Below, in pieces: positions 1,051-63,894 of a DNA stretch of 64,000 bases. Numbering within the stretch: position 1 is the stretch's first letter; each line of letters opens with the position of its first letter. The stretch covers positions 1,612,001 to 1,676,000 of the forward strand of contig NC_092409.1 of assembly GCF_009017415.1 (NCBI RefSeq), written 5' to 3'. Origin of the DNA: Aspergillus flavus. Its lineage: Eukaryota; Ascomycota; Eurotiomycetes; Eurotiales; Aspergillaceae. Under the pieces are notes generated by a model, which saw only the letters and a program-made list of their open reading frames with translations, searched no databases and was not told the DNA's origin. Both the position numbers and the translations under genes were made by a program.

Positions 1051-1796
1051 TTTTGTTGGTTTTATGGCTTTCCTCTCTTGCTTTTATAATCATAGTTATG
1101 CTATAATGAGGTTTCATGGTAGCTAGAAGCTCCGAATCTACTAAAGTACAAACACTTCCTGTTCAAGTGGCATCTGGAAGCTTATCCCGACCAGGCAGGG
1201 CGAGTAGTTTCCAATAAGAATAAGAAGAGGTTTGAAAAAGGTAATATTGATTTAATTCGTTATACGGAGTAGCCCGAAACATAATTGCAGCTGAGGACGA
1301 GTTACAGTAACTTTCATATCCTGTTTAGAGTGTTTATGCTAAGACAAACACAAGTCGAACTATAGTTGCACTACCGCTCTGCAGGATATACAAAGTATTT
1401 CAGACCGCTTTAAAATCCTTAACAAATATCAAGGTCACTTCAAGAATGGAGAACTATTTAATATGCACCTACATACGAATTCCATGAGAACCTATTGGAA
1501 AGGAGGTATAGCCTGCATAAATACAATTTCAAGAAGTCTGGGCTCAAAACGAGCTTACTGTTCAAATGCCACGCACTACCGACAGGGCCAACGTCATAAT
1601 TTAAACATCAACATTGCAATACTGGACTTTCTTTGCCCATCAAACCTGAGTGTCCGTGTACATGTTTCTACCCTTTTTTTAAATAAGAAAAAAATACACC
1701 CCTGAATATATACTAATAACTATATCGACCTACCGTTTCTATTATCTTTCCCATCCATCTTTTGCGGGGTACAACAGTCATTATCAAGACCCCGCT
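1051..1796. other. Intergenic, no gene seen
   Basis: AT-rich spacer between the PNPOx-like gene and the sirtuin. It includes one TACGGAGT element at about 1263. An open frame at 1463-1705 has no recognisable motif and I do not support it as a gene. Confidence 0.6.
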
Positions 1797-2826
1797 ATGG
1801 CTCCGTCAGCCATTCCCGCAGCTGATCTTAGGACATTCTCGGAGTACCTAAAAGGACGTAAACGTATACTCGCACTTCTAGGAGCTGGCATCTCAGCCTC
1901 ATCGGGGCTTCCTACCTTTCGAGGAGCGGGGGGTTTATGGCGAACCTACGATGCGACTGATCTGGCGACGCCCGAAGCATTCGAAGCCAACCCAGACCTT
2001 GTGTGGCAGTTTTATAACTATCGGAGACATATGGCGCTGAAAGCACAGCCGAATCGCGCGCATTATGCGTTAGCAGAGCTCGCTAAAAGAAATAAAAATT
2101 TCATTACCTTGTCGCAAAACGTCGACGGTAAGCCAGACCTTCGCTACACTGCCTATCCTAACTTCGCATTGTCACTAATGAAATAATCTGTCTACAGGTC
2201 TCTCACAACGAGCAGGGCATCCATTATCCCAACTTCACCTTCTCCACGGTTCCCTCTTCACCGTTAAATGCACATCTTTCTACTGCAGTTACTCCCGTGA
2301 GAACGATTTCACTGATCCAATAGTTCCTGCTCTCGCGATACCGAAGAACGTTCCAGAGCCCAAGCCATCGACGGACGATAAGACGGGCGAGGAAGCTTCT
2401 ACGTCTATATACAATGCATTAGGGATACCGGAAGGTGAAGAAATTGATATTTCTGATGACCGAGTTCCGCTAGCTCCGCTGAGCTCTGATGTCCTTCCAC
2501 ATTGCCCAGAGTGCAAAGATGGACTCTTGCGACCAGGGGTGGTATGGTTCGGAGAGAGTTTGCCGTCACAAACCCTCGACATGGTGGATAGCTGGATGAG
2601 GTCTGGTCCGATCGATTTAATACTAGTGATTGGTACAAGCTCCAGGGTGTACCCTGCTGCAGGCTATGTCGATAAGGCTAGGGCGAGAGGCGCTAGGGTT
2701 GCGGTGGTCAATATGGATCGGAATGATGTAGGATCTTCGGGGTTAAAACCAGGTGATTGGTTCTTCCAAGGCGATGCAGGTACCATCGTTCCAGAAATCT
2801 TAAAGGAAATCATTGGGGAGATCTGA
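1797..2826 (+). CDS. Class III (SIRT5-type) NAD-dependent protein deacylase
   Basis: Exons 1797-2127 and 2198-2826, with a 70-nt intron that splits the Gly codon of QNVDG, give 319 residues. The sirtuin core is complete: the NAD-binding loop [15 protein letters not shown] (29-43), QNVDGL (from 107), the catalytic HG (His about 127), two Cys pairs (KCTSFYC and CPEC) for the structural zinc, then [10 protein letters not shown] and [11 protein letters not shown]. The segment FYNYRR contains Tyr73 and Arg76, the Y-x-x-R pair that marks SIRT5-class enzymes preferring negatively charged acyl groups (succinyl, malonyl, glutaryl). An insert between the zinc Cys pairs (about residues 150-220) is longer than in mammals. 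The substrates and the cell compartment cannot be read here; no clear mitochondrial presequence is seen. Confidence 0.92.
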
Positions 2827-3554
2827 TTGGTATTATGGGGATTGTCGGTGTGATCGTCCGCTAAACTAATAGACTCAAATGCTCTAGTGATAACGTAAAT
2901 ATATAAAGCTCGGAGCCACAGTTGTCTACTATAGCACCCTCCCAGGTTGGTTAAACTATAGTAGAAAAAGAGGAATAACCGAATAATAAGTGGTCCTTAA
3001 GATGTAATTACAGCCCTTGAACCTTTCTCGAGAAACTTCATAGGAGATTTACTTGCGTTGTCATCGAATCACACTCGATAAAGAATCAGGCAATGAGGGT
3101 ATACTCAGTTATGGTGGCTGGTTGCCGGGGCAAAGTTCTACCCAAATAAAACTAGCGAGTTTAGCGCTATCGATAAATGTGGCATGTCGGCACTAAACAA
3201 CATTTGCAGCCTCAACATCAACTTCTCTGGCAACCCCACCCCCACTCAGTGAGCCTTGGAAATAATCATAGCTCCTTTGTTATGGCATGGGCGATTTCCT
3301 AAGATCTAATCGCGGTATGTGAATGAAGTCATTCTAATATAAAACCCCACAGTGTGGGGAAACTCCACGATGGCCTGAAGAGTTATGCTAACTATTGTGC
3401 CATCCCTACGATCAGATCTGGAAATGAATGAGGAAACCCAACATCAGTGGAACAGTATACCTTATTGTCTCATCTCATATATTTCGTCATAATACTTTCA
3501 GACTATCTCAGCAGACTACCTACCTAGAGGAAACCCCTCCATCAATTATTCAAG
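2827..3554. other. Intergenic, promoter of Snf2 gene
   Basis: About 730 bases with no open frame of note. It holds the sirtuin 3' region and the upstream region of the Snf2 ATPase. Confidence 0.6.
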
Positions 3555-6500
3555 ATGGCGAAAGAAAGTGAAAACCCGTTGAATCCGATCACCCCAGGGA
3601 AGCCGAAAGATCAACCCCACCGTCACATTTCCAATCAGCCAGAATTTGGGAAACCCTCACCGTTAGGCGGGGGGCGTCCTCAAAACCATCAATCCAATCA
3701 CCCTTTCAACATCCCTAAACAGAACAGGCCTCGACCAGAGCACCATAGACCCCAACAGCAGCAGCGACAAGGTGCACCCTTTCATGGTTACCGGCCTCCT
3801 ACGACACCAGGTGTTGCAGTCTCAACTCCCAGGCGCGCTGAGCCCTTCGACCCTTTTAAGCCCGTTCGTCCGTCGGCCTACAACAATTCCCGGTTTTCTC
3901 GCCCTGTCGATAATGATGTTGTCTCAATCAAACGCCCGGAAAATTTCACCTTTAACACACCACGGGCCCCCAAAACCTTCTTCGCTTCGAAAGCATCCGC
4001 GGTTAAGGTGTCAAACGCATCGAAGAACCTGCGGAACTTTGTCGATTTGACTGGCGAGGGCGGCTTCACGCCCAGCTCCCGATCACGCAATGTTGGTTTC
4101 GGATCGATGGACGTGAACGGTTATGTTGACACAGCTAAGGCAAACGAGAACATCAAAGCTCTTCTAGAGGGAGCCTTTGAAGACGAAGATGAAAAGCAAG
4201 ATTCCAGAGCAAAGAACAAGAAGAAGAAAAAGGATAAGAAGAATAAGGGTAAAAGCAAGAAGGCCGAGAAGCAAAATACCGAGAATAAAGAAAGCTCCGA
4301 AATAGATGATCTAGCCGCTCAATTGCAAGGGGTTACTGTTAATGAGTCCAGCGCGGACGGCAATGATGCGAGCCATGCGGAGACCGAGACTGAGGCCGAT
4401 CGATCGAGCGAGGATACTACCGATCGGGAAGTAGGACAAACAAGCGCTCCCAATGAACACGGTATCACCGGAGAACTTGAATCAGAAAACGAAGATGGTG
4501 AAGAAGTAGAAGACGAGGAGGAGGAGGAGGAGGAAGAAGAAGAAGAAGAAGAAGAAGAAGAAGAAGAAGAAGACGAAGATGATGGCACGGTGGAGGGCTT
4601 GAAAGTTAAGTTACTGCCCCATCAACGAGAGGGAGTGAACTGGATGCGGGACAAGGAAATTGGCAATAGCAAGACCAAGGGTGTACTTCCAAAGGGTGGA
4701 ATCCTCGCAGACGACATGGGTCTTGGGAAGACCGTTCAAGCTATAACCCTGATGCTCACAAACCGGAAACCTGAAGACGGGCGTCGGCGCATCATTGATT
4801 CTGAGGAAGACGATGGTAGTGGCATTGACTCCGAGGGCGATGGAGGCAAAGATGATTCGAAGCTACCTCCCGGATTGAGCAAGTCTACTTTGGTTGTTGC
4901 TCCATTAGCATTAATCAAACAGTGGGAGTCCGAAATCGCTGACAAGGTTGAGGCTTCCCATAGACTTCGCGTATGTGTTTACCATGGGAATACTAGAACA
5001 AAGGCGACAGACAATCTTGAAGATTACGATGTTGTGATTACGACATATGGCACTCTGACATCTGAACACGGTGCCATCGACAAGAAAAACAAGAAATCGG
5101 GCATCTTCTCCGTCTACTGGTACCGAATCATCTTGGATGAAGCCCACACTATTAAGAACCGGAATGCAAAGGCAACCCAATCTGCTTGCGCTTTAGATGC
5201 CGAGTATCGATGGTGCTTGAGCGGAACTCCAATGCAAAATAATCTTGATGAGTTGCAAAGTTTGATCAAGTTCCTCCGGATCAAACCCTATAACGATCTA
5301 GCAGCCTGGAAAGAACAAATCACTAAGCCTCTAGCCAATGGGCGCGGGGCTCTTGCGATCGAGCGTTTGCAAGTCGTTCTGAAGGCTTTCATGAAGCGGC
5401 GCACTAAGGATGTCTTGAAGCTCAATAGCAACCTCAAACCTAACGAAGCAGCTTCCGACGGAGAGCAGAAAAAACCATCTGGCTTCCAAATCGTCAAGCG
5501 AGAGGTGATCAAGGTTTCGGCAGAGTTCACACCGGGTGAGCTGAACTTCTACAAGCGCCTCGAGCAGCGAACCGACAATAGCCTTGAAAAGATGATGGGC
5601 GGCTCCAAACTCGACTACGCTGGTGCATTGGTACTGTTGTTGCGTCTCCGACAGTCCTGTAACCATCCAGACTTGGTGAAAAGTGACCTTGCTAAAGATA
5701 AAGATATTCTCCTGCAGAATGGTACCTCAGGTAGTCAACCTGCAGCCGGGAAACAGGATGATCTGGACAGTATGGCGGATCTCTTTGGGGCTCTCAGTGT
5801 TGTCTCGAAGAAATGCGACATCTGCCAAGCTGAATTAAGCCAGAAAGAGACGAAAGCTGGTGCTAGCAGATGTGGTGAGTGTGAAACAGATCTGAACGTT
5901 AGTTTCACCGGTAATCACAGCGGCAAGAAAAAGCATTATCCAGAGCAAGACGTTGTGGACCTTACGGAATCACCCTCCAACCGGCGATCAGATGCTCAAC
6001 TTGCACGGTCCCGAAGAAATAGAAAGGTAGTTATCGATAGCGACGATGAAGAAGACGATGGCGAGTGGCTCGTCCCCGAAGACCAGCGTACGGTACCAGA
6101 TCTTGGAAAGGCTGGAGGGTCGGATGATGAAGATGCGGAAGGAGGTGGCGATTGGCTCGGCTCAGAAGACTCTGAGACTGACTCGGACGATGAAGGCGGT
6201 CCTGAGTCGCCAACACGCAACCGTATGGGTTCCAGAAAACAGGTTAATGAATCGGATGAAGACGACATCTATCTTAATCCTGGCGATGAAGACAATCAGG
6301 TGCTTCCTTCAACAAAAATCCGACACCTGATGAAAATTCTCAGGCGAGAGTCTTCAGACTACAAATTCATTGTATTCTCGGTCTTTACGTCAATGCTGGA
6401 CAAGATTGAACCGTTCCTTCAGCGCGCGGGCATTGGGTTTGCACGTTATGATGGTGGCATGCGAAACGACCTCCGAGAGGCCAGCCTGAACAAATTGAGG

Positions 6501-40831: not shown

Positions 40832-42168
40832 ATGCAAGCAAGAGGTGAGAGCCCAAGTAGATCCGTTCGTTCCGGATTATATTGTGACTGGGTTCGATGC
40901 TAATATCTTTATCAGGTGATGGCCTAAAGGCCCTTATCGAGAAATACCGACCAGACTTGAAGCCGTTTGAAGAGGTCTATCGTCAGTTGCACAGCTCCCC
41001 CGAGCTAGCCTTCCAAGAAGAGAACACATCAGCTATCGCCGCAGATCATCTCAAAAAGTTGGGCTTTGAGGTTCACACGCACATCGGTGGATATGGAGTT
41101 GCCGGTATTCTCCGTAACGGCGATGGGCCAACCGTTCTCCTGCGAGCCGACATGGATGCGCTACCTTTAGAGGAAAAGACTGGTTTGCCGTACGCTAGCG
41201 ACAAAATCGTTAAAGACAAAGACGGAGTGAAAAGACCGGCAATGCATGCCTGTGGTCACGATACGCACGTCACAAGTCTCATGGCGAGTGCTGAGCTTTT
41301 AAATTCCGCCCGGGATCACTGGTCTGGTACCTTGATCTGTATTTTCCAACCAGCGGAGGAGCTACTGTCCGGCGCCAAAGCGATGATCGAAGACGGGCTG
41401 TACGAGAAGATCCCCAAGCCAGACGTTGTCCTGTCGCAGCACGTTATGAAAATGAAAACGGGCACAGTCAGTATCCGTTCGGGTCGGCTGCTCACGGCTG
41501 CTGATTCCTTCGATGTGCGCATCTATGGGCGCGGTGGACACGGCTCGGCTCCTCAGACTTGCATCGATCCCATTGTTATCGGCGCAACAATTGTGACGCG
41601 CCTGCAAAGTATCGTCAGCCGCGAAGTGATGCCGGGCGAACTGGCTGTTGTCAGTGTTGGGAGCATCCAAGCTGGTCATGTAGCGAACATTATCCCCGAT
41701 CAGCTGGATCTCAAGCTTAATGTTCGGACATACGACCCCAAGGTCCGCGAGCGTGTTATATCTTCCGTGAAGAGAATCATCGAGGCAGAGTGTCTAGCAG
41801 GAGGTGTCGCCGAGAAACCTCTTGTTAAGCAGATACTTTCTGCTCCCGCGACTATCAACGATGAGGCTACAGTCAAGGCTCTCCAAAAAACATTTGGATC
41901 ATATTTCGGAGAAAACTTGGTTGAATCGGAGCCAGCGACTGCAAGTGAAGATTTCTCCCTTCTTGCGACGGCGGTAGGAGCACCGTATGTGATGTGGACG
42001 TATGGTGGAGTCGACCCTGAGACATGGGATGATGCCGTGAAGCAGGGTACCACTGATCAGCTACCCAGTAATCACTCCCCGTTCTTCGCTCCAGTGATCC
42101 AACCGACTCTTGGTACTGCAATTGATGGAATCGCCCTTGGAGCACTGACTTTCCTGAAGCGGAACTAA
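40832..42168 (+). CDS. M20D-family amidohydrolase (hippurate/IAA-amino-acid hydrolase type)
   Basis: Exons 40832-40844 (13 nt) and 40916-42168, with a 71-nt intron, give 421 residues. The first exon encodes only MQAR plus one base, joining to GDGLKALIEKY; this is a better start than the ATG inside the intron. Family motifs: HSSPELAFQEE, RADMDALPLEEKTGL, MHACGHDTHV (Cys and His metal ligands), QPAEE (metal/catalytic Glu), GRGGHGSAPQ (dimerisation-domain His) and the C-terminal SEDFSLLA. Such enzymes cleave N-acyl or N-aroyl amino acids with a dinuclear metal centre. The substrate cannot be read from sequence. Confidence 0.92.
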
Positions 42169-51742: not shown

Positions 51743-53034
51743 TCAAGATTCAGCGCCCCTCTCGACAAGGTTGATCGTGTCTAACTCATTGATCGTGTCC
51801 GGAATCCTCTTATGGTTTCGGGCGGATCGACCGCTCTGTCTCGAGGAGCTGTAGGGTTCGTAGGACTTGGAGCCAAAGGTCATAGGCCTGCCTCGGATAA
51901 TGATCCACAGTGGACGCAACGTCGGAAGACAGGCAAGGATGACAGCGAGCGAGATTTCGATATTCGTCCAGAAAAAGACCGGAGAGGTATAGTCTACCAC
52001 CGTACATTAGCAACCACTTCGGAGGCGGAGTTGGCCACTTACATGTTTCGTCGTTGTAGTGCTCCATAAAGGTAGTTCCAACATGGAAGTACATGGCCAT
52101 GCGAGTAATGCTGATTGCGATGACACTTAACCTCCAGTGGTTAGCTTGGATGAGGATCGTCAAATGGAATAGACTCGTAGGAGAGGGAATCATACGCTGC
52201 ACCCATAATGAACATGCCTGCAACGGCCAATCTCTGCTTCATGGGCAAGCGGAGCTTGAAGACTAGAGGCAAAGGCAGCACCAGGATGATAACATCGATG
52301 ATCACGTCGGTGATGCATGATGCATACCACATAGAAACGCTATCGATACACTTGTTGCCATAGAATGGCTCGACTAGGGGTGTCACGGGATAGCAAGTGA
52401 AGAGGTTGCTGAAGAAGAAGGATATCGTCCAGGCACCCGTGATGCCTAACAAGACCGCCGAGACATGCTTAAATATACGAGACACCGAGAAGATCCCCCG
52501 AAGCAGCACGAGGAGCGACAGTTTTGTGAGGCCCAAACCAATGACGGCCATCAATTGACTGGCAAACTTGCACTATCCGACACAATATTGGATCAGCTGG
52601 CCATTCAAACCTTGTGACAACTATCCCCTATCCGAACATACCTTTTCATAGGTGAGAAACCGAGGGTCGTTTAGAAGTGGTTGTCCATCGGGTCCTGTTG
52701 TCTGATGCTGTCCCAGCTGGCCATCGATCGCACCTGCATGAAGCGTGAGCCACTATCATCATCTCGCCCACCGGGGGATAGGCGAGATAAAGTACCTATA
52801 AGTTGTGTGATTGAACATGCGACTGAAAAAGCCTAGAATCCGTTAGATTGTAACATGATACACATATGTATATCCACGTACCAGTGCCCCAAAAATCAGG
52901 TAGTCATCCCATTGCACACCTCCACGCGAAATCCACTTGGCCCAGACCCGAAGATTTACGAAGATACACGGGAGAATTAGGAACGTAATTCCCAGCGCGA
53001 TCATTTGCGTTTTCGAATAAGAATCAATCGCCAT
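51743..53034 (-). CDS. Fungal rhodopsin-domain integral membrane protein
   Basis: Six minus-strand exons: 52882-53034, 52796-52832, 52642-52733, 52196-52572, 52043-52131 and 51743-51993; 332 residues, all phases agree. It has about seven membrane helices. The first is IALGITFLILPCIFVNLRVW, followed by WDDYLIFGAL, which is diagnostic of the fungal rhodopsin-like (PTH11-related) domain; then CKFASQLMAVIGLGLTKLSL, MWYASCITDVIIDVIILVLP (the S-x-x-D-x-x-I core) and FWTNIEISLAVILACLPTLR. There is no CFEM domain. These proteins are often found in secondary-metabolite clusters, but their function is rarely known. The C-terminus is Ser/Arg-rich and cytoplasmic. Confidence 0.87.
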
Positions 53035-53767
53035 GATGGTGGTAGTAGTAGTGAGTCGCTGAGATGGACATTCATTGAGGCCCGCAGTTGCGCATGGAGG
53101 AGTATAAATGCAAGATAATCCACCATCTCCTCGTGAGATAAGACTGCAGCTAACGTCAACACCTGCAGCACTCACTACTGAACCCCCCCTCCACACGTTC
53201 AAGAGGAGTCGAGCAAACCAAAGGAGTCGACCAGTTGTACTATACGGTACGGTACGGACTTTGACAGCAACAATACAGCAACGCAGGGACTCAATGTCCA
53301 AGCGACCAAGTAGTGCGCTAGGGCATGACCCCTGCCGCCATAAATTAGTTGCAGGCCAAAGGTAACAGTGCTTATATTACTCCGGTAAGCCAACCCCTCT
53401 GGGAAAGATCGCCAATCACAATTCGGAGTACACCGTGGTTCCTGATCGCAGAGACCCATGGTAATGTACATTACACTATCTGAGTTGTTGGTGTCAATGC
53501 TGCCACCCGTGGGCTGATTTGATCGTCTGCGAAGCTCTGTCTGACGGTTCCTGTCGTACTTTATAGTGGAGAACAGGATAGCGTAGGGGCAATTTTACCT
53601 AGGTAGCACTGAAAGCGAGTTGAACGAGTCGTCATGCAACATAAGGGAGTTCTAAGCTTCAAGTTTAGGGGTAGTGGCTTTCAAAAGGTGGCTGTATAAA
53701 ATACTCGACAAGCCTGACCTGCTCATACCGCCTGTCACTCCCCTTGTACTCTGTCCCTGCCGACCTC
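53035..53767. other. Divergent promoter region
   Basis: Spacer between the rhodopsin-domain gene (-) and the FAD oxidase (+). It contains a direct repeat of GGTAC at 53246-53257 (CGGTACGGTACGGACT). No gene seen. Confidence 0.5.
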
Positions 53768-55351
53768 ATGGCGACTTTAATTGTGTCCCTGCTTCTGACT
53801 CTTCTCGCCCGTGAGGTCCTTGGACTATCCCCGGTGCGTGTCTCCCATGAGCTGGGGCCTCACTTATCTCCATCAGCTTTGATTACTGGTGCAAACACAA
53901 CTGCGTATCCGCGTTGGAGCGAGTTTGATGCTCCTCAGCCCGGAGTTGTGGTGACCGTGGCTACGGAGCAGGATGTAGCCAGAACAGTACGTTGTCCTCC
54001 CTCTTTGCCTTTTCCTCCCTTCTTTTATCCCCCTGCCGCGATACGATGGTTGTTCATATCTCACGCCAAGCACTCAACAGGTGCACTACTGCACGTCCAA
54101 TGGCATTCCATTTCTGGCTCAAAATGGAGGACATGGCTGGGCAAATACATTCCACCTGGGAACGGACGGACTTCTGATCAATATTAAACAACTAAACACG
54201 ATCGATTTTAGTGATAACAAGACGGAAGTCACGGTCGGGGGAGGAGTTGAGATCTCGGAGATGATTGCGGCTGCCTCCAAGAATGGTGCCCTCGTCCAGA
54301 CTGGTAACTGTAACTGTGTTGGAGCTCTGGGTGCTACTTTAGGGGGTGGATATGGAAACCTCATGGGTCTGATGGGCTTAGGAGTCGATAACGTCCTGTC
54401 GCTCAACGTGGTTATGGCCGATGGTCGCTTGCACACCATCACTCCCAAGGATCGGGATCTCTGGTGGGCGATGCTCGGTGCTGGCCCTAACTTTGGAATT
54501 GTCACGTCTGCAAAATTGAAAGCGCACCCAGTCGCACCTTCGGGCCAAACCGCCTGGTTTGGACAACTAATCTACACCGCAGACAAGGTCGAAGCTGTAG
54601 TGGAGGCCATCGACAACATCACTCTAGAGCCGAAAATGAATCTTTTCCTATACTACATGAATAGTGGCTCTCCGGACTACACACCTATGCTCGTTGTCAC
54701 GCCATTTTACTACGGAACTGAGGCGGAAGGAAGAGCTGCATTCGCAACCTTCCTGGACCTTAGTCCGACGGAGGACACTACGACCGAACTTCAATACCCG
54801 CACTGGAATGATGGGGCGGCGGGATTCTGCACCAAGGGTGGGTATAAACCGGCATATACTGTTGGTCTTGCTCGGATGAACCCCAGCACCTGGAAAGAGG
54901 TTTGGGATGAGTATGTCTCGTATATTGCGCAGAATGGCACCGGCAGCAGCCTGATTCTCATGGAAGCATATTCTCTGGAGAAAGCTCGCTCCGTACCGGA
55001 GTCATCTACTGCCTTTGCATTGAGAAACAAGGTCAACTTCAATGCGGTTGTTATCCCATGGTACTATGATACCAGCCTTCGTTCGGGCGCCGAAGCGTTC
55101 GGCTCCAAGATTCGTGACCTCTGGCGCTCTACTGATGAGCTTGACTCCCCCGCCACGTACGTTCTTATTTCTTTCTTTCATGTTCTTCCTTTCTCCCAAT
55201 CTTCCGGCTAATTGATTTATACAGGTACATCAACTTCGCTCATGGGGATGAGGATTTGACCTCGATCTATGGTGCGAATGTGGACCGGCTCAAGGCTATC
55301 AAGGCGCGAGTGGATCCAGGAGATGTTTTCAATCAATGGTTTAATCTGTGA
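53768..55351 (+). CDS. Secreted BBE-type FAD-linked oxidase
   Basis: Exons 53768-53986, 54081-55156 and 55225-55351 give 473 residues. The start at 53768 gives a signal peptide (MATLIVSLLLTLLAREVLG). FAD_binding_4 motifs: YPRWSEFDAPQPG, AQNGGHGWAN (His for 8-alpha FAD linkage) and GNCNCVGALGATLGGGYG (Cys for 6-S linkage), so bicovalent FAD is likely. The BBE C-terminal motif YINFAHGDEDLTSIYG with RVDPGDVFNQWFNL closes the protein. Relatives oxidise alcohols, amines or C-C bonds in secondary metabolism and often cyclise peptides or alkaloids. It sits in the proposed RiPP cluster; its substrate is unknown. Confidence 0.92.
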
Positions 55352-55567
55352 AAGCCGGGTGCTATATCATACTTGTATACTACTACCTAAGGTGATGTAG
55401 AGTAGACCTTACTGTCGCTTAGAGGAAAAGAATATGAATAGATCGCATGTATAATTTGTCCTCACTGAATCTGTTTCTACATATCTCCTTTCGCTCCCCG
55501 AGGCAAAAACTACTCTGGTAGTATTTGGATCATTCTAGGCCACTGCTATAGTGTAAATCATCCTCCA

Positions 55568-56380
55568 TTACCACGGTACAATACCCTGAGGGCCATGAAC
55601 CCTTCCCGGCTGGTCATCCTTCTCTCCTTTCACGACCGAGGCGATAATCTGCGCCCCAACCTCCGGCTCTGTCGCGCCCATTCTGCGCAACGCGTCCGCA
55701 TCTCCAATGACATCAGTTGCACAGAATCCCGGATCCGCACCCAGGACTTTAACGCTCTTCAACTTCATATGGTACTGCACTAGTAACATATTGAGTGCAG
55801 CTTTGGCTACGCGATGTTCCGTGGCATGTGTGCCACCGTGCGGGGAGTTCGGATCGAGATTATATGTCATTGACCCATTGGAAGAGCTCACAAAGACCAA
55901 CCGGGGGTTAGTAGACTTCAGGAGTAGAGGAAGCAGCGCTTCTGTCAGACTTGCCGCACCCGTGACGTTGGTCTCAAGAGTAAGCCGCAGGGCATCACGG
56001 ACAGCCTCTTGGTTGAGGAGATAGATGCCTGCATTATTGACGAGCACGTCCAGATGGCCGAAGTCCGATTCAATACGTGCTTTTGCGTCATCAACGGACT
56101 GATCGTCCGTTACGTCTAGCTGGATCGTTGACACGGTGCCGTGGATGCCAGGCAGGGTGCGGAGAGAGTCGGCTGCTGCATCGCCCTTCGAGCAGTCTCG
56201 ACTACCGATGATAATGTGGTAGTTGCCTGACAGAAGTAGATTTTTGGCTGTCTCGTAGCCGAGACCCCGGTTTGCGCCTGGAATTTGTTGATGATAAGTT
56301 TTGTTCATGTAAACTATGCCAATCTTAGAGAAAAGCGGTAGAGACGTACCAGAGATGAGGACAATTGATTGTGGTGCCAT
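55568..56380 (-). CDS. Short-chain dehydrogenase/reductase with Tyr-to-His change
   Basis: Minus strand exons 56350-56380 and 55568-56277, with a 72-nt intron, give 246 residues. The intron stays open in frame, so an unspliced reading looks like a 270-residue protein with a damaged cofactor loop; splicing restores SGANRGLGYETA. Other motifs: LDVTDDQS, VLVNNAGIYLL, and the Ser region FVSSSNGS. The usual YxxxK is here HRVAK: the catalytic Tyr position holds His, while Lys is kept. The enzyme may be inactive, retuned, or a non-canonical SDR. It is divergent from the GMC gene. Confidence 0.88.
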   Translation of the reverse strand: MAPQSIVLISGTSLPLFSKIGIVYMNKTYHQQIPGANRGLGYETAKNLLLSGNYHIIIGSRDCSKGDAAADSLRTLPGIHGTVSTIQLDVTDDQSVDDAKARIESDFGHLDVLVNNAGIYLLNQEAVRDALRLTLETNVTGAASLTEALLPLLLKSTNPRLVFVSSSNGSMTYNLDPNSPHGGTHATEHRVAKAALNMLLVQYHMKLKSVKVLGADPGFCATDVIGDADALRRMGATEPEVGAQIIASVVKGEKDDQPGRVHGPQGIVPW

Positions 56381-56729
56381 CGATATGGCTAGAGCTTTTT
56401 CGCCTCGAGTAAACAGGGGTAAATGTCGGCCTTGAAGTCGGATGAGCCCTCCTGCCCAAGATATACCTGCGATCGGATGCTGTAGGGTAGGGTAATTTCC
56501 CTGCCATATTTATCCGTGTCTGAGCTATAAAGACATTCCGCCGATCGAAAGCATCGGGGCTTATCATTGAGTCTGTTCCCGTCAGACTAACAGGGATGGT
56601 AAGATTTCATATAGTAAGCAATAACCATTCCTGTAGTAGTGGCTTGGAAGTTTAGGCCTCCAATCTACCCCTCTTATTTCCTCGACAATCTGGCTTCTAC
56701 TATTCTACGCAACTACAACCACATCAGCT
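56381..56729. promoter_or_regulatory. Divergent promoter between SDR and GMC genes
   Basis: 349-bp interval between divergent start codons. Consistent with coordinated expression of the two oxidoreductases, which is an inference. Confidence 0.45.
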
Positions 56730-58403
56730 ATGGGATCAATAGCATTAGAGGCGGATTACATTATTGTGGGCGGCGGACTGGCTGGGTGCGCGGTCGCCTC
56801 ACGCCTGAAGCAACGCAGCCCATCCCTCGACATTCTCATTCTCGAGGCAGGCAGTGACCCTTCCAGCAACCCCAACACACAATCCTTCACGGGTGCCTTC
56901 TCGCTCCTTGGCTCTGATCTCGATTGGACCTATAGCACCGAGCCCCAGAAGAATACGGGCAATCGAGTGCACACTATCCATAGCGGGAAGGCCCTGGGAG
57001 GAGGAAGTGTAGTGAATTTCGGTGGCTGGAGTCGCGGGGATGCGACCGACTACGATGACTGGGCCAGAATAGTCGGAGACCAGCGATGGAGCTACGACGG
57101 CTTACTTCCGTACTTTCGCAGGTCGGAGTCGTTCTTCGACTCTAATGCAGACCCCAAGCAACACGGATTTGAGGGACCTATTCATGTCACTTCGGTCTCT
57201 GCCAGTGACCCCAACAGACGGTATCCTCTTCGGGAGCCAATCAAGGATGCTTGGAACGAGATTGGGGTTCAATATAACCCTGATGGCTGCTCTGGAAATT
57301 TATCTGGTATCAGTGAATTCTTAGAGACCTGGCGCGACGGAAAGCGTCAAGCAGCACACCAAGTGTACAGCTTGGAAGGTGTGCAGCTGCTTACGGAAGC
57401 TATTGTTCACCGAGTCGAATTTACGGACGGCGCCCAGAATGGACAGAAGACTGTTTCCGCGGTACTTCTGTCGGATGGCCGGCGCTTCAATGCACGTAAG
57501 GAGGTCATTCTGGCAGCCGGTACTCTCCGGACACCCCAGGTCCTCATGCTATCAGGAATTGGACCAACCGATATACTATCCCATCACGCGATCCCAATTA
57601 TCATCGATGCGCCAGAAGTCGGTAAAAACCTGAATGATCACTTTGCGCTCTACCAGTTATACAAGTTACGCAATCCAGAGCGCGGGCTCGCCCTGGGTAG
57701 TCCCGTCCTCTCAGATCCCGCCTTTATGAAGGGCTTTCCTGGAGACTGGGTTGTTAACCAGGACGTACCGGCGGATATTTTGGGGGCAGCAGTGCGTAAT
57801 GATAACGTGCGATTCGGCTCCCCTACAGACGAATCTTTCTTGAGACCTGGGCGACCGCTCGTGGAAACTCTAGTTGCCTATGCTCCGGCTGGTGTACCCG
57901 GAGTTCCCATGGATGGCAGTTTTATCATGACCTCGGTCATGTTGCTCGCTTCAACATCCCGTGGAACCGTCAGCATTCGGTCGCCATTGCCCACGGACCC
58001 TCCCCTGGTCGACTCTAACTACTTTGACACAGAAGCCGATCGTGTTACATTGATCCACGGCAGTCGGCGCACGATGCAGGCTCTGCTGGATACGTCCGCT
58101 TTAGCGGATTATATCGAGACTGAAGTGCCTCCCCCGGGAATGCCAGCTTTATCATCTCGATCATCGGACGACGAATTCGAGGCCCGGATCCGGGCGACTG
58201 GTCTGGCTCACCATCATCCAGCAGGTACAACCGCCATGGGCAAGGTAGTCGGTCCAGACCTTCGTGTCTTTGGCGTTCATAATCTTCGCATCGTAGATGC
58301 GAGTATACTGCCGCTGAGTATCGGTGGCCACCCGCAGGCGACCCTTTATGCAGTTGCCGAGCAGGCTGCAGACATTATTCTCGGGGCCGACGCCCAGGCA
58401 TGA
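56730..58403 (+). CDS. GMC-family FAD oxidoreductase
   Basis: A single exon of 557 codons. Landmarks: YIIVGGGLAGCAVASRL (dinucleotide-binding loop), ILEAG, GKALGGGSVVNFGGW (GMC signature 1), AAGTLRTPQVLMLSGIGP (GMC signature 2), and the active site LAHHHPAGTTAMG with GGHPQATLYAVAE, giving a His-His pair. There is no signal peptide, so it is probably cytosolic. GMC enzymes oxidise alcohols, including aryl and sugar alcohols, and several act in secondary-metabolite pathways. The cluster position suggests a tailoring role. Confidence 0.93.
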   Translation: MGSIALEADYIIVGGGLAGCAVASRLKQRSPSLDILILEAGSDPSSNPNTQSFTGAFSLLGSDLDWTYSTEPQKNTGNRVHTIHSGKALGGGSVVNFGGWSRGDATDYDDWARIVGDQRWSYDGLLPYFRRSESFFDSNADPKQHGFEGPIHVTSVSASDPNRRYPLREPIKDAWNEIGVQYNPDGCSGNLSGISEFLETWRDGKRQAAHQVYSLEGVQLLTEAIVHRVEFTDGAQNGQKTVSAVLLSDGRRFNARKEVILAAGTLRTPQVLMLSGIGPTDILSHHAIPIIIDAPEVGKNLNDHFALYQLYKLRNPERGLALGSPVLSDPAFMKGFPGDWVVNQDVPADILGAAVRNDNVRFGSPTDESFLRPGRPLVETLVAYAPAGVPGVPMDGSFIMTSVMLLASTSRGTVSIRSPLPTDPPLVDSNYFDTEADRVTLIHGSRRTMQALLDTSALADYIETEVPPPGMPALSSRSSDDEFEARIRATGLAHHHPAGTTAMGKVVGPDLRVFGVHNLRIVDASILPLSIGGHPQATLYAVAEQAADIILGADAQA

Positions 58404-59518
58404 TCACCTTTCATGCAGTTATCAACATGCCATGTTGATGGCTTACATTCTTTCATGTACAATCCATGGTCATTGCATATTTTCTGGATTCATGGCTTCA
58501 AAGAGTCCTTAGTCGAGCGCTCTCACTTCCAACAAAAGACATCATGTATAGACAGTCTTATAGGTAGACCCATGTCTATATATCCAGAACGCAGTCTTAT
58601 CACTTGACCATGGCGGCCTCACACGTACCATCCAATTGAGTGTGAAACAATGATCATTATTGCAACTGTATGTCAGATAAGGAATAGTCTCCTAGTTCAC
58701 CATGCACGTACGAGTGTCTGTACGTGAGGTAATTGCACTAAGTTGGCAATATTAGCGGCAGGGGCGGGATCATGATTCATTTCAGATGATTCTCCTTCGC
58801 CTAGCAGTACCGGGCATGCTATAGCAGGGTACCTTTATTAAGCCCCCAATCAGCTATCTGTCTGACTCGATAAGGAGGTGTGCAATACTCGAGTCGTGTA
58901 TACCCTGTAGCACACACACGGAGTTAACGCACAGATTGTGTACGTATGCTAATATATACCTACCTTGTCATTGGCGCAACGAAAAGCCTACTTGCGAACT
59001 ATAGGATCCTGGATGTAGACTACCAGGTAGCTCAGAGACAATCCAACATCGTGCTACATACATGTACCGCCCCGTATTACGAACGGCTGCTGCGTATCAT
59101 TTCCTCAATGGTAAAGGAGAGATTTTTAAACTAGGGTTTGAGCCTAATTAACTCGACTCCTTCCCGATGGTCGATCCCGCTTCCCCGTCGGCGATCGACA
59201 CCCGGAGCATCATTGCGCGCACCAGACGGGCAATTACCATGAGACGTACACTAGTCGTATAGATGGTGTTCATAAAGTCAATGAAGAATAGACGCAAGAG
59301 GCCCAAGTGCTCGAAGTATTCGGCGATAATAGAGCGTTGAAACTTTAGTATTTCTTCACATATACCGCTCCTTAACTTGCAAGGATCTACATGAAATCAT
59401 GACCACCACAATGCATCGGACTAAGCAAAACTCCCCTTCTATTCCAGTTCTTCGTCTTGCCCGAAGAGGCCAGGCTCGTTAACTCTTATCCGGTTGACGA
59501 GAGTTCCAACACCACCAG
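58404..59518. other. Intergenic
   Basis: About 1.1 kb. A minus-strand open frame of about 80 codons at 59152-59390 (contains EYFEHLGLLRLFFIDFMNT) lacks a start and sits downstream of the precursor gene. It may be 3' sequence or a relic; I do not call it. Confidence 0.45.
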
Positions 59519-59773
59519 CTATTGCAAGCTACGTTTCTCTGACCAACTGTTGCGAACGAAGTCGTCTGCGTCCTCGCTGCGTTTTTCCGACCAACTGTTG
59601 CGGACGAGATCATCGGCGTCTGTGACGGCTTGATTTGATAAAGAAGCAGTCAGCTCACGGATGCTTTATGGATAATATAAGGGACAAGGAATGTCAGTAC
59701 CACTCCCAGTAGGGAAAGCTGTTGCTGCGCCCAGAGCGAGCATAAGGAGGGAGATGTATGTGGTGGTTCGCAT
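59519..59773 (-). CDS. Kex2-processed RiPP precursor with two 16-residue repeats
   Basis: Minus strand exons 59701-59773 and 59519-59628, with a 72-nt intron (GTACTG donor, GCTGAC branch, ATCAAG acceptor), give 60 residues. Residues 1-19 are a signal peptide (MRTTTYISLLMLALGAATA). The mature part holds two near-identical 16-residue units: DADDLVRNSWSEKR and DADDFVRNSWSEKR, each ending in a Kex2 site (Lys-Arg). This layout (signal, acidic spacer, short repeated core, KR) is that of fungal Kex2-processed repeat proteins, including dikaritin precursors of the ustiloxin type. The likely core lies in LVRNSW/FVRNSW, with Trp (and Phe) as candidates for side-chain linkage. It neighbours two UstYa genes. 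The intron and repeats are read directly; the RiPP role is inference from family and context. Confidence 0.8.
59534..59620 (+). repeat. Two 39-nt direct repeats, 48-bp period, in the RiPP precursor
   Basis: Units at 59534-59572 and 59582-59620 share GACCAACTGTTGCG and flanks, with several silent differences. They encode the repeated core and Kex2 unit. Confidence 0.9.
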
Positions 59774-60550
59774 TTTCTTTGCGGTCGCTTGCTATTGTGT
59801 CTGTTGGTTGATTAGGATGGGGATTGCTGTGTGCTTATACTTGAGTATCGGGAGTTATATATGCACTGCAGTGAGATGACCGGAAGCCCGAGCCCAATAA
59901 TGAGAGTAATACAGCGAGCGCGTACACCGAAGCAGAACCACATATTCGAGTGATAAATTGTAGATTGATAGTGTCGCCGTGGTGTATTGCGATTAATACT
60001 AATTGGCTACTGAAGAGACCACGGATTCTACGAGTGCTTACCCGTATTGTCCTGCTCTCCATGCACACGGACACGTATGGAACATGAATACGAGTCTCCG
60101 GTAGGTATCAAACATTTTGATTGCTCTGCAATCCTTTGCAATAACACGACCTCAACTTATAAAGATCACCGGTATACGTCCCAGGTTAGGATAAAAGCTT
60201 AGCGTCGATATTTCCTCCAATTATATGAGCCTGTTAGCCCAGAATTGGGTTTATGGTCTTGTGCATGGTCTAAGCACTGTCCCTTGGTTGTTTAGGCAAA
60301 ATCCTTCGCAATGTAACCCCTCGTATCTCTGTGAGGGCTTCTTGTGCTTACTGTCGATCCTTCAAGGAATGTAACGGGTTACGACAGGTATTGTTTCGAG
60401 TGATACAGTTCTACAGGTATGTATCGCACTTCACTATACTCGAACTGTTGCATGTACGTGTTCTGCATATTCCTCAACAATTCAACAAACTCATTGAATT
60501 TCAGATCATGACACCCTCCAGAAGGGTATCATATCAACTACCTGCACCCG
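59774..60550. other. Divergent promoter region between precursor and UstYa gene
   Basis: About 780 bp separating the precursor (-) from the first UstYa gene (+). Apart from the TATA-like box, no gene or clear motif. Confidence 0.5.
59857..59864 (-). promoter_or_regulatory. TATA-like box upstream of the precursor gene
   Basis: ATATATAA on the minus strand, about 84-91 bp before the precursor start codon. Position and sequence suit a core promoter; not tested. Confidence 0.4.
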
Positions 60551-61388
60551 ATGGGATTAAATGATTCCAGCCCAATCCCAAATAGAACTTCATCTCGCAC
60601 CAGAACCGGGGCACTGTTCATCCAAGTGATAGTGACATTCACAATAGCGCTCACACTGGGTCTAATCATCGGCCAGAGATTATCAGTCAACAAGTGGGAT
60701 GGACTTCTACGTGAGTAACACATTTCCCTCTAGCCGATGATGAATGCGTATACTGAGATCATGCATTTTGTTAGTACCTGAAGGTAATATCAAAACAGTC
60801 TGGGAGCATAACCTCACCTTTTCCCAACGTCCAACGCCCGAGTCTGAAGCCGCTTGGAATTCCATAATCCCAGGTAACTCCAAGCTCACGCTGCCAGGCT
60901 ATCAAAAACCTTATTAACAATTAATACGCGGGTCCAGTCGGACGAGGTTTCATTCATCATCCTGAAATCGCACCCTTTATTTCTAACATCGCTGTCTTTC
61001 ATCAGTTGCATTGCTTGGTTAGTTTACTTCTTGCATCTCCCCTATGTTATGCACAATTCTGATAATTGATATCCTGATTCTATAGCACGCAATTCTAGTC
61101 GCCTACTATGCCGCCGTTGAGGAATCTGACGTAGCCAAGGGCGCTCAGCGTCCGGACAATTACCTCCAACAGACGGGAGCGAGAATGGCCCCGTCGCATA
61201 TCCGACATTGCTTCGACTATCTTCGACAGGCGTTGATGTGTGCGGCGGATACTAATATGGAGGTGTTGGATCCTGAAACGCATACGACGAGTGGATGGGG
61301 GCAGGGCAAGCGGTGTCGAGACTATGATGAGGTCGTGATGTGGGCGGAGAAGTGGGCAAATTCGACAGATACGGGGATTGTTACTTAG
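60551..61388 (+). CDS. UstYa-family (DUF3328) RiPP oxidase, copy A
   Basis: Exons 60551-60710, 60775-60873, 60938-61017 and 61086-61388 give 213 residues, all in phase. A short polar N-terminus precedes a membrane helix (ALFIQVIVTFTIALTLGLII, about 22-41). The lumenal domain has WNSIIPGR-type family spacing (ESEAAWNSIIP, then VGRGF) and both diagnostic motifs: FHQLHCLH (His108, Cys112) and SHIRHCFDYLRQALMC (His151, His154, Cys155). UstYa proteins install oxidative side-chain cross-links in fungal RiPPs, using metal bound by the HxxHC motifs. The start at 60551 was chosen because the frame upstream is closed. Confidence 0.9.
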
Positions 61389-61523
61389 GTTTACTCATTT
61401 ACATAGGAGTGATGGGTTATGGCATGTATCTATAAGCCTATATTTCAAAGAAGAAGCTGGATTTAAAAGTGATAGATCCGAAAGCACACTATTCAATTTA
61501 CAAGTCCAACAACCCAATCAGAT

Positions 61524-62453
61524 CTACTGCGCCAACATTCCATAATCCCTCATATCCACCATCCTCGATCTGGCCCACTGATCCAGCGCCTCCCAATTCA
61601 CGCACTCATGATCGCTATACACCCGCGAATACGGTAACCCGTCTACCCAGCGGAAAGTCGCGAGGGTGGTGTCGCCCCGACACATGGCTGCTTCACGCCA
61701 GTACTCAAGACAGTGATCGATGTGAGCCTCCTCGCGAATACGGTCATCTTCTGTCATATTGGGGTAGTACCTGTCAAGGTGGAAATGGCGACGGATGCGT
61801 TTCTAAAAGGCAGGGTATTAGCTGCAATTTCCAATGGGGTTATGGATAGATGGATGGATGGCGCACGATGCAGTGGAGTTCGTGGTACACGGCTAATTCG
61901 GCGATGTAGCCGGTCTCATTTTTGAAGGCGATGCTCGGGTCTGGGAGATGGGAGAGTTCTTCTGGGGTGATTTTGATCGTCATGGCTAGGTTTTAAGGTT
62001 AGTGGTTTTCGATTGGATGGGGGGAGGAGGGCTTACGTTCTAGCAGATGTTTCCAGGCTGCGTCGAATTCGGGTCGAGGGTCGCCGGTGAAGACATTGTT
62101 TTCGATGTCTCGTTTGAGACGTCTTTGTTCGTAGGAGATAACATGTTTTGCGGGGGCTGTGAGATGGGTCAGTTCTGTTTGAGATACAATTGCGCTGGAT
62201 TTCCGTGTTCGAGGGGAAATAACATACAATAAGACAACTTTGGTCGTACGCACACCTTGCTCAATAGAGTAGCCCGCCACCAGAGGCCGAAGAGGACAAT
62301 GTTTGACAGTAATAATAGGGAATAGACAGTATAATGCCAGTAGATGGATCGTCCCTTCTGTGTATGAGGGACCCGCAGCTGTTCATGAGAAGTTCGGGAC
62401 TCTTCTATGTCTGATGAGGCTACAGGAGAGTAATCGTGCTTGGTGGTGTCCAT
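61524..62453 (-). CDS. UstYa-family (DUF3328) RiPP oxidase, copy B
   Basis: Minus strand exons 62228-62453, 62037-62156, 61867-61985 and 61524-61802 give 247 residues. The exon 1 donor at 62227 (GTATGT) was chosen over an earlier GTGTGC because it alone keeps phase and restores SYSPAKHVISYEQRRL. A membrane helix (IYWHYTVYSLLLLSNIVLFG) follows a polar N-terminus. The family signature FTGDPRPEFDAAWKHLLE leads to VYHELHCI (His150, His153, Cys154), KRIRRHFHLDRYYPNM, and AHIDHCLEYWREAAMCRGDT (His182, His185, Cys186). This is the YHELHCLxxIR subclass, more canonical than copy A. The two copies probably act together, as UstYa and UstYb do. Confidence 0.92.
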
Positions 62454-62802
62454 GATGGCTTCGTGCTCTGGAAGTCGTAGTTCCGAGGGGATGGTGGTTG
62501 TTATTGTCCACCTCTCTCTCTGGCACACTGGTTGAATTTTACACACTGGGACAGTATTGACAATACCACCAAGGATCAACGGTAGGTAGATACGAGCGGA
62601 GCACCCGACGGGGCTTCTGCAAAGCTAAAGCATCGTCACACTTCGGCTCTTGCAGAGTGCGGTAGTCAATCAGCCAGAATAGCCGGTTTTACCAATACGG
62701 AAATTGATAACTCAGTGTAGTCGTTGCTTTTGGGGCTTATCCAAGCTTCTCCTCCCACATTCCTCTTCAGAACCATGAATCTTCGTTCAGAAATAACTCG
62801 CG
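62454..62802. promoter_or_regulatory. Divergent promoter between UstYa copy B and methyltransferase
   Basis: 349-bp gap between divergent start codons. Suggests shared control of the pair; inference only. Confidence 0.45.
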
Positions 62803-63894
62803 ATGAAGTTGACAGCTTCATTTGCACACTCAAGATGCTACCCTTTCCGCCGCTTAGCAGTTCCATACCGTACTCGCAGACAATTCAGCACCGCAACGAT
62901 CCATCTCAACAAGGATGATTCCGCCAATGTATGGACATTGACCCAAGAGGATGTATCACACTACTGGAAAGGCTACCTCGCCACACGTCCCAAATACACA
63001 GACACATTCTACAACCTTATCTACGACTACCATGCCTCACACTCACAATCAAGCCTACCCCCATTCTCCGTCGCCCACGATGTCGGTGCTGGACCGGGCC
63101 AAGTCTCCGCGAAGCTCGCCCAGAGATTCTCCCACGTCGTCGTGAGCGACAATAACGAGAACCATGTCAATTATGCTAAGCACTTCCTTTCAACAACCAG
63201 TGTGCCACCATCCCGATTCTCCTTCGCCGTCGCAAAAGGCGAAGATCTGGGGTGCAAGTACCCACCCGCCTCCGCTGACCTAGTCGTCAGTGCACTCATG
63301 TTCCCGCTCATGGATACTATGTCTGCGCTGCGAAGCTTCCATACTCTCTTAAAGCCTGGCGGGACTCTGGCTGTGTGGTTTTATGGACGTGCACACTTCG
63401 CCGAGCTAGAGTATGCGGGATTGTGTCAACCACTCTTAGACAGGATAATCAATCATCATTTCTCAGGTGTGATTACCGGAGGAAGCCCGGAGCACACGGC
63501 GGGGTGGAAGCATGTGGCGGATGGCATAGCCAGTTGGTTGGATTATATCCCCTTCGCGGAAGAGAACTGGGGGTTTGTTGAGCGACATAAGTGGAATACC
63601 AAATGGACTAGTTTGGGGTTCTTTGGTAATGAGGCATGCGATTTTTCCGTGGAGCCGAGGAGTAGTGTCACGGACACGGAGACGGTTATTGAGAGGGACG
63701 ATAGGAGTCTCTGGAGGAAGGACTGGGATGTGGGCCAACTTCGTGAGTTCGTTAGGTATATTTACCCTTTCCAGGGGATGGAGGAGGAATATGTGAAGCC
63801 GCTGTGGGCGCAGTTGGAGAGAGAAATGGGCGGGTTGCACGCTAGGCGGGCATTCTCGTGGCCAGTGGTTTTGATTTTGGCGACGAGGAAGTGA
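62803..63894 (+). CDS. SAM-dependent methyltransferase
   Basis: Single exon of 363 codons. The class I fold is clear: HDVGAGPGQVSAKLAQRF (motif I, about 92-109), VVVSDNNENHV (post-I acidic turn), ADLVVSALMFPLMD and LLKPGGTLAVWFYG (motif III). Family resemblance is to the fungal Crg1/trans-aconitate-type group. The first 35 residues are Arg/Ser-rich and could be a presequence or an over-long start; a start further in is possible. In ustiloxin-type clusters a methyltransferase N- or O-methylates the peptide; the position beside two UstYa genes suggests a similar role here. Confidence 0.88.
   Translation: MKLTASFAHSRCYPFRRLAVPYRTRRQFSTATIHLNKDDSANVWTLTQEDVSHYWKGYLATRPKYTDTFYNLIYDYHASHSQSSLPPFSVAHDVGAGPGQVSAKLAQRFSHVVVSDNNENHVNYAKHFLSTTSVPPSRFSFAVAKGEDLGCKYPPASADLVVSALMFPLMDTMSALRSFHTLLKPGGTLAVWFYGRAHFAELEYAGLCQPLLDRIINHHFSGVITGGSPEHTAGWKHVADGIASWLDYIPFAEENWGFVERHKWNTKWTSLGFFGNEACDFSVEPRSSVTDTETVIERDDRSLWRKDWDVGQLREFVRYIYPFQGMEEEYVKPLWAQLEREMGGLHARRAFSWPVVLILATRK

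Follow-up and report, generated by a model that had tools for sequence, protein, structure and literature searches.

A candidate UstYa-type RiPP gene cluster in Aspergillus flavus whose precursor is unusually small and whose core is free of tyrosine

Does a group of eight genes at positions 51743-63894 of an Aspergillus flavus contig encode the biosynthesis of a ribosomally synthesized and post-translationally modified peptide (RiPP), and if so, of which class? The genes lie in a 64-kb window, by which we mean the whole stretch of DNA that was analysed (contig 2, bases 1612001-1676000), and they had been predicted from the sequence to form a dikaritin-type RiPP cluster. A match to RNase T1 at 100% over 104 aa, together with repeat precursors carrying the YAIG and FYYTGY cores of ustiloxin and asperipin-2a, places the genome in the A. 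flavus/oryzae group. A piece of TAKA-amylase matches one locus only (contig 2, 5443 kb; 92-100%, exon by exon); as A. oryzae RIB40 has several copies and A. flavus has one, A. flavus is slightly likelier. All eight genes named in that original prediction were located, and seven of them carry Pfam domains in their spliced models, the precursor gene having no Pfam match (Table 1). The models were built on hand-chosen splice sites and checked for stop codons; the existence of the gene set is secure, its splice sites being predicted. Our results suggest that the locus is probably a small UstYa-type RiPP (ust-RiPS) biosynthetic cluster, a function that we regard as a well-supported prediction from sequence comparison.

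The central element is the precursor gene, in which an intron of 72 or 81 nucleotides (nt), depending on the acceptor, directly follows the signal peptide and leaves a product of 60 or 57 amino acids (aa). Exon 1 encodes MRTTTYISLLMLALGAATAFPTG, whose hydrophobic stretch LLMLALGAATAF with its AxA-type end was judged by eye and from hydropathy to be a signal peptide for the endoplasmic reticulum (ER). The product of exon 2 reads S(AVT)DADDLVRNSWSEKR-SE-DADDFVRNSWSEKR-SLQ and contains exactly two copies, 16 codons apart, of the Kex2 repeat consensus DADD(L/F)VRNSWSEKR. The two copies share 13 of 14 residues and both end in KR; at the nucleotide level they differ at 8 of 45 bases, seven of these differences being synonymous and one accounting for the Leu/Phe exchange. 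Such amino-acid identity was reached in about 0.05% of trials under random substitution (P ~0.0005). Since one of the antisense frames shows about the same conservation between the copies (13/14 residues), the strand of the precursor does not follow from this test; it is the signal peptide, the KR sites and the exon layout that speak for the minus strand. When all six frames were scanned for sequence repeated ahead of KR or RR, with a 60% identity threshold set before the results were seen, the 64-kb window gave a single match, the precursor itself; 100 first-order Markov windows of equal length gave three. The predicted "Kex2-repeat precursor" was confirmed, having with just two repeats fewer than the term suggests. 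No paralogue was found in a protein search of the whole genome (37.7 Mb in 8 contigs, as in all whole-genome searches below), which returned only the two exons of the precursor and nothing else at E<=10 (1 candidate scored). Directly downstream and on the same strand lies an 82-codon open frame (59148-59396, minus), to which no role is assigned.

Of the two UstYa (DUF3328) genes, one lies 0.8 kb and the other 1.8 kb away from the precursor, and their products match Pfam UstYa/DUF3328 with E-values of 1.4e-21 and 4.9e-59. Both proteins keep the paired HxxHC...HxxHC motifs, to which the binding of two copper ions has been ascribed, and one hydrophobic helix: UstYa1 has an N-terminal helix, HQLHC(108) and HIRHC(151), and UstYa2 has HELHC(150) and HIDHC(182), which fits the description of the family in PMC12435403. 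According to the account given there, the DUF3328 enzyme CctR holds copper at 2:1 per monomer, depends on the HxxHC...HxxHC motif and needs oxygen and electrons; its domain is predicted to face the organelle lumen, and the DUF3328 cyclase AprY is likewise reported to be copper-dependent. A lumenal topology would place the UstYa enzymes where a precursor with a signal peptide would go. Compared with solved structures, UstYa2 had no relative (best E 1.7).

Comparisons within the genome lend support to a UstYa-type RiPP cluster. In all, 34 matches to UstYa exons fall into 15 places, namely the studied locus and 14 others, where a precursor scan covered about 2-8 kb, mostly 4-5 kb, on each side. 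The results showed that six of these 14 places bear Kex2-repeat precursors, and that the scanned stretches at the remaining eight hold none. One of the six, at C5 (contig 5) ~4.10-4.12 Mb, we take from its YAIG core to be the ustiloxin B cluster; another, at C7 ~851 kb, is by its FYYTGY core presumably the asperipin-2a cluster. In five of the six precursors, as in the studied one, the exon for the signal peptide is followed directly by what looks like a short intron, the FYYTGY gene being without it, and the spacer RSEDA is common to the studied precursor and the EAIPYYP precursor (C7 ~809 kb). The best in-genome relatives of both UstYa proteins lie at precursor-bearing loci. Furthermore, in whole-genome searches (13 and 19 candidates scored), UstYa1 and UstYa2 together matched all six precursor-bearing places versus two of the eight others (Fisher P 0.0097, for a test picked after the data had been seen).

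As to class, the five-gene definition of dikaritins by Ding et al. (2015), as quoted in PMC12048977, provides one yardstick. The locus shares with dikaritins a leader and repeated motifs in the precursor, a methyltransferase and multiple DUF3328 proteins; it has no tyrosinase, and a strict dikaritin was rejected on that ground. The only tyrosinase match on contig 2 lies at 553 kb, ~1.1 Mb from the cluster at ~1.67 Mb (15/15 candidates scored), so that a tyrosinase is not merely past the window edge, and the same search recovered as positive controls the matches at the ustiloxin locus (C5:4114712) and near the LYGAWG locus (L013). Of the dikaritin-type reading in the original prediction, the UstYa-type RiPP cluster stands on the in-genome comparisons, the strict dikaritin does not. 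With ust-RiPS the locus shares a signal-peptide precursor, a repeated core between Kex2 sites and DUF3328 genes within 10 kb; it does not have the "highly repeated" core seen in ustiloxin. Surveys of Kex2-processed repeat proteins (KEPs), as described in PMC7329392 and PMC6339444, required at least three repeats, and with two the precursor falls outside both by design. PMC7329392 also cites a previous survey, covering 20 Aspergillus strains, in which over 40 types were counted no further than 10 kb from DUF3328 genes. The strings FVRNSW, LVRNSW, NSWSEKR and VRNSWS gave no match in the full-text literature searched, and no report of the locus was noticed in searches of the UstYa/DUF3328 literature; the predicted "undescribed" status is unproven.

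How might such a cluster work? If it is a UstYa-type RiPP pathway, the precursor of 57-60 aa would enter the ER by its signal peptide, and Kex2 would cleave after the two KR sites to give two near-identical peptides, each made up of an acidic spacer and a core that ends in Trp. For the cores, LVRNSW and FVRNSW are the likeliest sequences, each with SE behind it. In that compartment, the two UstYa enzymes would remove side-chain hydrogen and introduce a cross-link into the core, or may hydroxylate or dehydrogenate the core instead. Because the core has no Tyr and no tyrosinase lies nearby, the Trp indole would be the likeliest cross-link partner. The methyltransferase, the GMC oxidoreductase, the SDR and perhaps the BBE-type enzyme would then methylate and oxidize the product. 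More tentatively, and with less than even confidence, we propose that the product is a Trp-centred, Tyr-free macrocycle joined from the indole to an aliphatic carbon in (L/F)VRNSW without a tyrosinase, and that the two-repeat, intron-split precursor of ~60 aa represents minimal precursors missed under the three-repeat threshold.

Plant burpitides, which include Trp cross-links, are alike in outline, in that a ribosomal peptide has its side chains joined by a copper enzyme, the copper-dependent BURP cyclase; BURP cyclases belong to another protein family and another host, and the likeness is one of analogy only. Their planar four-histidine arrangement is likened to that of DUF3328 in PMC12435403. 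Parallels are also offered by known fungal systems. The ustiloxin B locus resembles the studied one in its signal peptide with an apparent intron behind it, its Kex2 repeats with an acidic spacer and its two UstYa matches, and its UstYa proteins are among the best relatives of UstYa1 (42-45% identity over 49-64 aa). It differs in its 16 repeats, its Tyr core and the tyrosinase match nearby. Both pathways have a methyltransferase (for ustiloxin, according to PMC12048977); the studied one has no other genome match at E<=0.001 (2 candidates scored) and is therefore, by this indirect comparison, at best distant from that of ustiloxin. Its relatives among solved structures are likewise distant only (best E 6.2e-6). 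The asperipin-2a locus is also a small cluster of UstYa and repeat precursor, with no tyrosinase match on its contig, and is presented in PMC8703953 as a four-gene cluster without a peptidase; it differs in its 11 FYYTGY repeats, in having no intron behind the signal peptide, and in having one UstYa (PMC7329392) versus two here. The DUF3328-linked KEPs of Umemura et al. (2020; PMC7329392) are similarly secreted, with KR-bounded repeats beside DUF3328 genes, and include Trp types, but in that survey have at least three repeats where the studied precursor has two.

Several observations weigh against a UstYa-type RiPP cluster. The splice signals of the precursor (donor GTACTG, acceptor AAG) fall short of the ideal, and the position of the acceptor is ambiguous. 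The repeat cores contain Trp and no Tyr, whereas PMC7329392 gives Tyr in 65.6% of the repeats of DUF3328-linked KEPs and a Trp share that is not raised near DUF3328 (20.5% vs 24.5% of repeats). When 18 fetched loci were searched with a laxer local tblastn, the UstYa proteins also matched six of the eight precursor-free places (L018, L019, L020, L021, L023 and L026), so that the closer likeness of these proteins to those at precursor-bearing loci is a matter of degree. The strands of the eight genes alternate strictly, a pattern noticed post hoc that random strands would give with P = 2/256, and form four divergent pairs with common upstream regions of 733, 349, 777 and 349 bp; SDR and GMC have one such 349-bp region in common, and others join precursor with UstYa1 and UstYa2 with methyltransferase, these last two pairings speaking for rather than against such a cluster. 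Co-regulation is presumed; no 7-mer is common to all four regions, and the search for a regulatory motif among 6-mers found 4 in common, with 4.2 expected. Finally, the precursor has only two repeats, versus 7-16 in the six other precursors of the genome.

These observations bear on four other explanations. It is possible, though in our view rather doubtful, that the RiPP unit comprises only the precursor, UstYa1, UstYa2 and the methyltransferase (59.5-63.9 kb), the GMC, SDR, BBE and rhodopsin-domain genes being neighbours or part of another pathway; this is compatible with a UstYa-type RiPP cluster, and both can hold. The lack of a promoter motif common to the divergent regions is in line with such a unit, as is the 1.1 kb between the GMC gene and the precursor, the widest gap between cluster gene models. 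In addition, the BBE gene is one of a large family, with 53 exon matches across the genome that include 3 to the gene itself, and rhodopsin-domain matches also occur at the UstYa loci L019 and L026, both without a Kex2-repeat precursor. The strict strand alternation across all eight genes argues against it, together with the fact that housekeeping genes start only left of the rhodopsin-domain gene. We consider the BBE-type oxidase gene a probable member of the cluster and the rhodopsin-domain gene the least certain one.

Since the precursor has only two repeats, the locus could also be contracted or decaying, a relic that has lost most repeats and makes no product or a trace of it. We regard this as unlikely: all enzyme models are open with intact Pfam domains and UstYa motifs, the differences between the repeats are mainly synonymous, and no degenerate third repeat was found in the 250 nt downstream of the precursor, where the best match was equalled by 347 of 500 shuffles.

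It is improbable, too, that the repeat frame is fortuitous and that the substrate of the UstYa enzymes, which they hydroxylate, halogenate or isomerize, is a small molecule made non-ribosomally, as for cyclochlorotine. DUF3328 enzymes do act outside RiPPs according to PMC12435403, and at eight of the 14 other UstYa places the few kb scanned contain no Kex2-repeat precursor. Against this stand the low chance rate of such repeats (three matches in 100 synthetic windows), a signal peptide, intron layout and spacer that fit the other precursors of the genome, and the best matches of both UstYa proteins at precursor-bearing loci; moreover, no nonribosomal peptide synthetase (NRPS) or polyketide synthase (PKS) domain is present among the eight genes, and none was noticed in the open reading frame (ORF) lists of the 30-kb right flank, where no search was aimed at them. 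That the gene encodes a linear, pheromone-like secreted signal peptide unrelated to its neighbours is highly improbable, for although alpha-pheromone precursors may have only one or two repeats (PMC6339444), nearly all pheromone-annotated KEPs in the survey of PMC7329392 are without DUF3328 among their 15 nearest genes, and this precursor is flanked on one side by two UstYa genes in immediate succession.

The locus is best described as a compact candidate UstYa-type RiPP cluster in which an unusually short precursor carries cores free of Tyr. If this is correct, a further RiPP pathway would have been hidden in an intensively studied group of moulds, one of food use and mycotoxin concern. The KEP counts of PMC7329392 and PMC6339444, as reported there, would be lower bounds, since their definitions leave out two-repeat precursors. 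A core free of Tyr would, in addition, help to test the cross-linking range of the DUF3328 copper enzymes.

How far does the cluster extend? The genes predicted at the left border were confirmed, namely the housekeeping genes of a NUBPL/ParA (IND1-like) and an AATF/TRAUB (BFR2-like) protein, beyond which an M20 peptidase gene lies at 40888-42168. On the right, we inspected 30 kb past the window (L009-L011), where Pfam was applied to a selection of the long ORFs and those of L011 were read by eye. A Fungal_trans_2-type gene is a possible pathway regulator and the sole plausible extra member among the ORFs inspected; otherwise mostly ordinary genes follow, so that the suggested continuation of the cluster past 64 kb found no support beyond this gene. 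The P450 gene at C2:1700683, ~25 kb right of the methyltransferase, lies beyond PAP1 (92 of 262 candidates scored, a nearer P450 being not strictly excluded), and a cluster reaching it was rejected, with PAP1 and other ordinary genes in between. Pfam revealed no transporter or peptidase among the eight genes, the surroundings not having been exhaustively scanned for either; a search for MFS transporters scored 9 of 820 candidates and was uninformative.

Table 1. Features of the studied locus, its right flank and the other precursor-bearing loci of the genome. Plain numbers are window positions; C denotes contigs and L fetched loci.
Feature	Position	Strand	Description	Evidence
Fung_rhodopsin-domain membrane protein	51743-53034	-	330 aa, 6 exons	Pfam Fung_rhodopsin 6.3e-52
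BBE-type FAD (flavin adenine dinucleotide) oxidase	53768-55351	+	473 aa, 3 exons	Pfam FAD_binding_4 7.8e-25, BBE 1e-8
SDR	55568-56380	-	246 aa, 2 exons	Pfam adh_short 8.1e-29
GMC oxidoreductase	56730-58403	+	557 aa, single exon	Pfam GMC N 4.7e-32, GMC C 9.8e-32
Precursor gene	59519-59773	-	60 or 57 aa	Spliced model, repeat scan
Precursor exon 1	59701-59773	-	Signal peptide	
Precursor exon 2	59519-59628 or 59519-59619	-	By acceptor used	
Repeat 1, DADDLVRNSWSEKR	59579-59620	-	Proposed core LVRNSW, 59591-59608 (putative limits)	
Repeat 2, DADDFVRNSWSEKR	59531-59572	-	Proposed core FVRNSW, 59543-59560 (putative limits)	
UstYa1 (DUF3328)	60551-61388	+	213 aa, 4 exons	Spliced model, Pfam UstYa/DUF3328
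UstYa2 (DUF3328)	61524-62453	-	247 aa, 4 exons	Spliced model, Pfam UstYa/DUF3328
Class I SAM (S-adenosylmethionine) methyltransferase	62803-63894	+	363 aa, single exon	Pfam 1.1e-12
Small ORF	L009 ~1580-2180	-		No Pfam match
Fungal_trans_2-type regulator	L009 ~3000-5300	-	~3 kb right of methyltransferase	6.8e-5
Gfo/Idh oxidoreductase, GtaA-type glutaminase, DUF2433/RRM protein, bZIP PAP1, Tudor-domain protein	Further right			
Precursor LYGAWG	C5 ~118 kb (L012/L013, ~106-126 kb)		9 copies	
Precursor EAIPFY	C3 ~42 kb (L014)		7 copies	
Precursor EAIPYYP	C7 ~809 kb (L016)		10 copies	
Precursor FYYTGY	C7 ~851 kb (L017)		11 copies	
Precursor YAIG	C5 ~4.1 Mb, 4.10-4.12 Mb (L022)		16 copies	
Precursor KYDVYD	C6 ~3.51 Mb (L024)		8 copies; UstYa match adjoins	

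Two further observations concern the other precursor-bearing loci. The LYGAWG locus combines several UstYa matches with a core that holds both Tyr and Trp and with a tyrosinase match at C5:128300; this locus may correspond to that for asperigimycin in A. flavus. The EAIPFY and EAIPYYP precursors are related, each lies beside a UstYa match, and they probably represent sister RiPP pathways.

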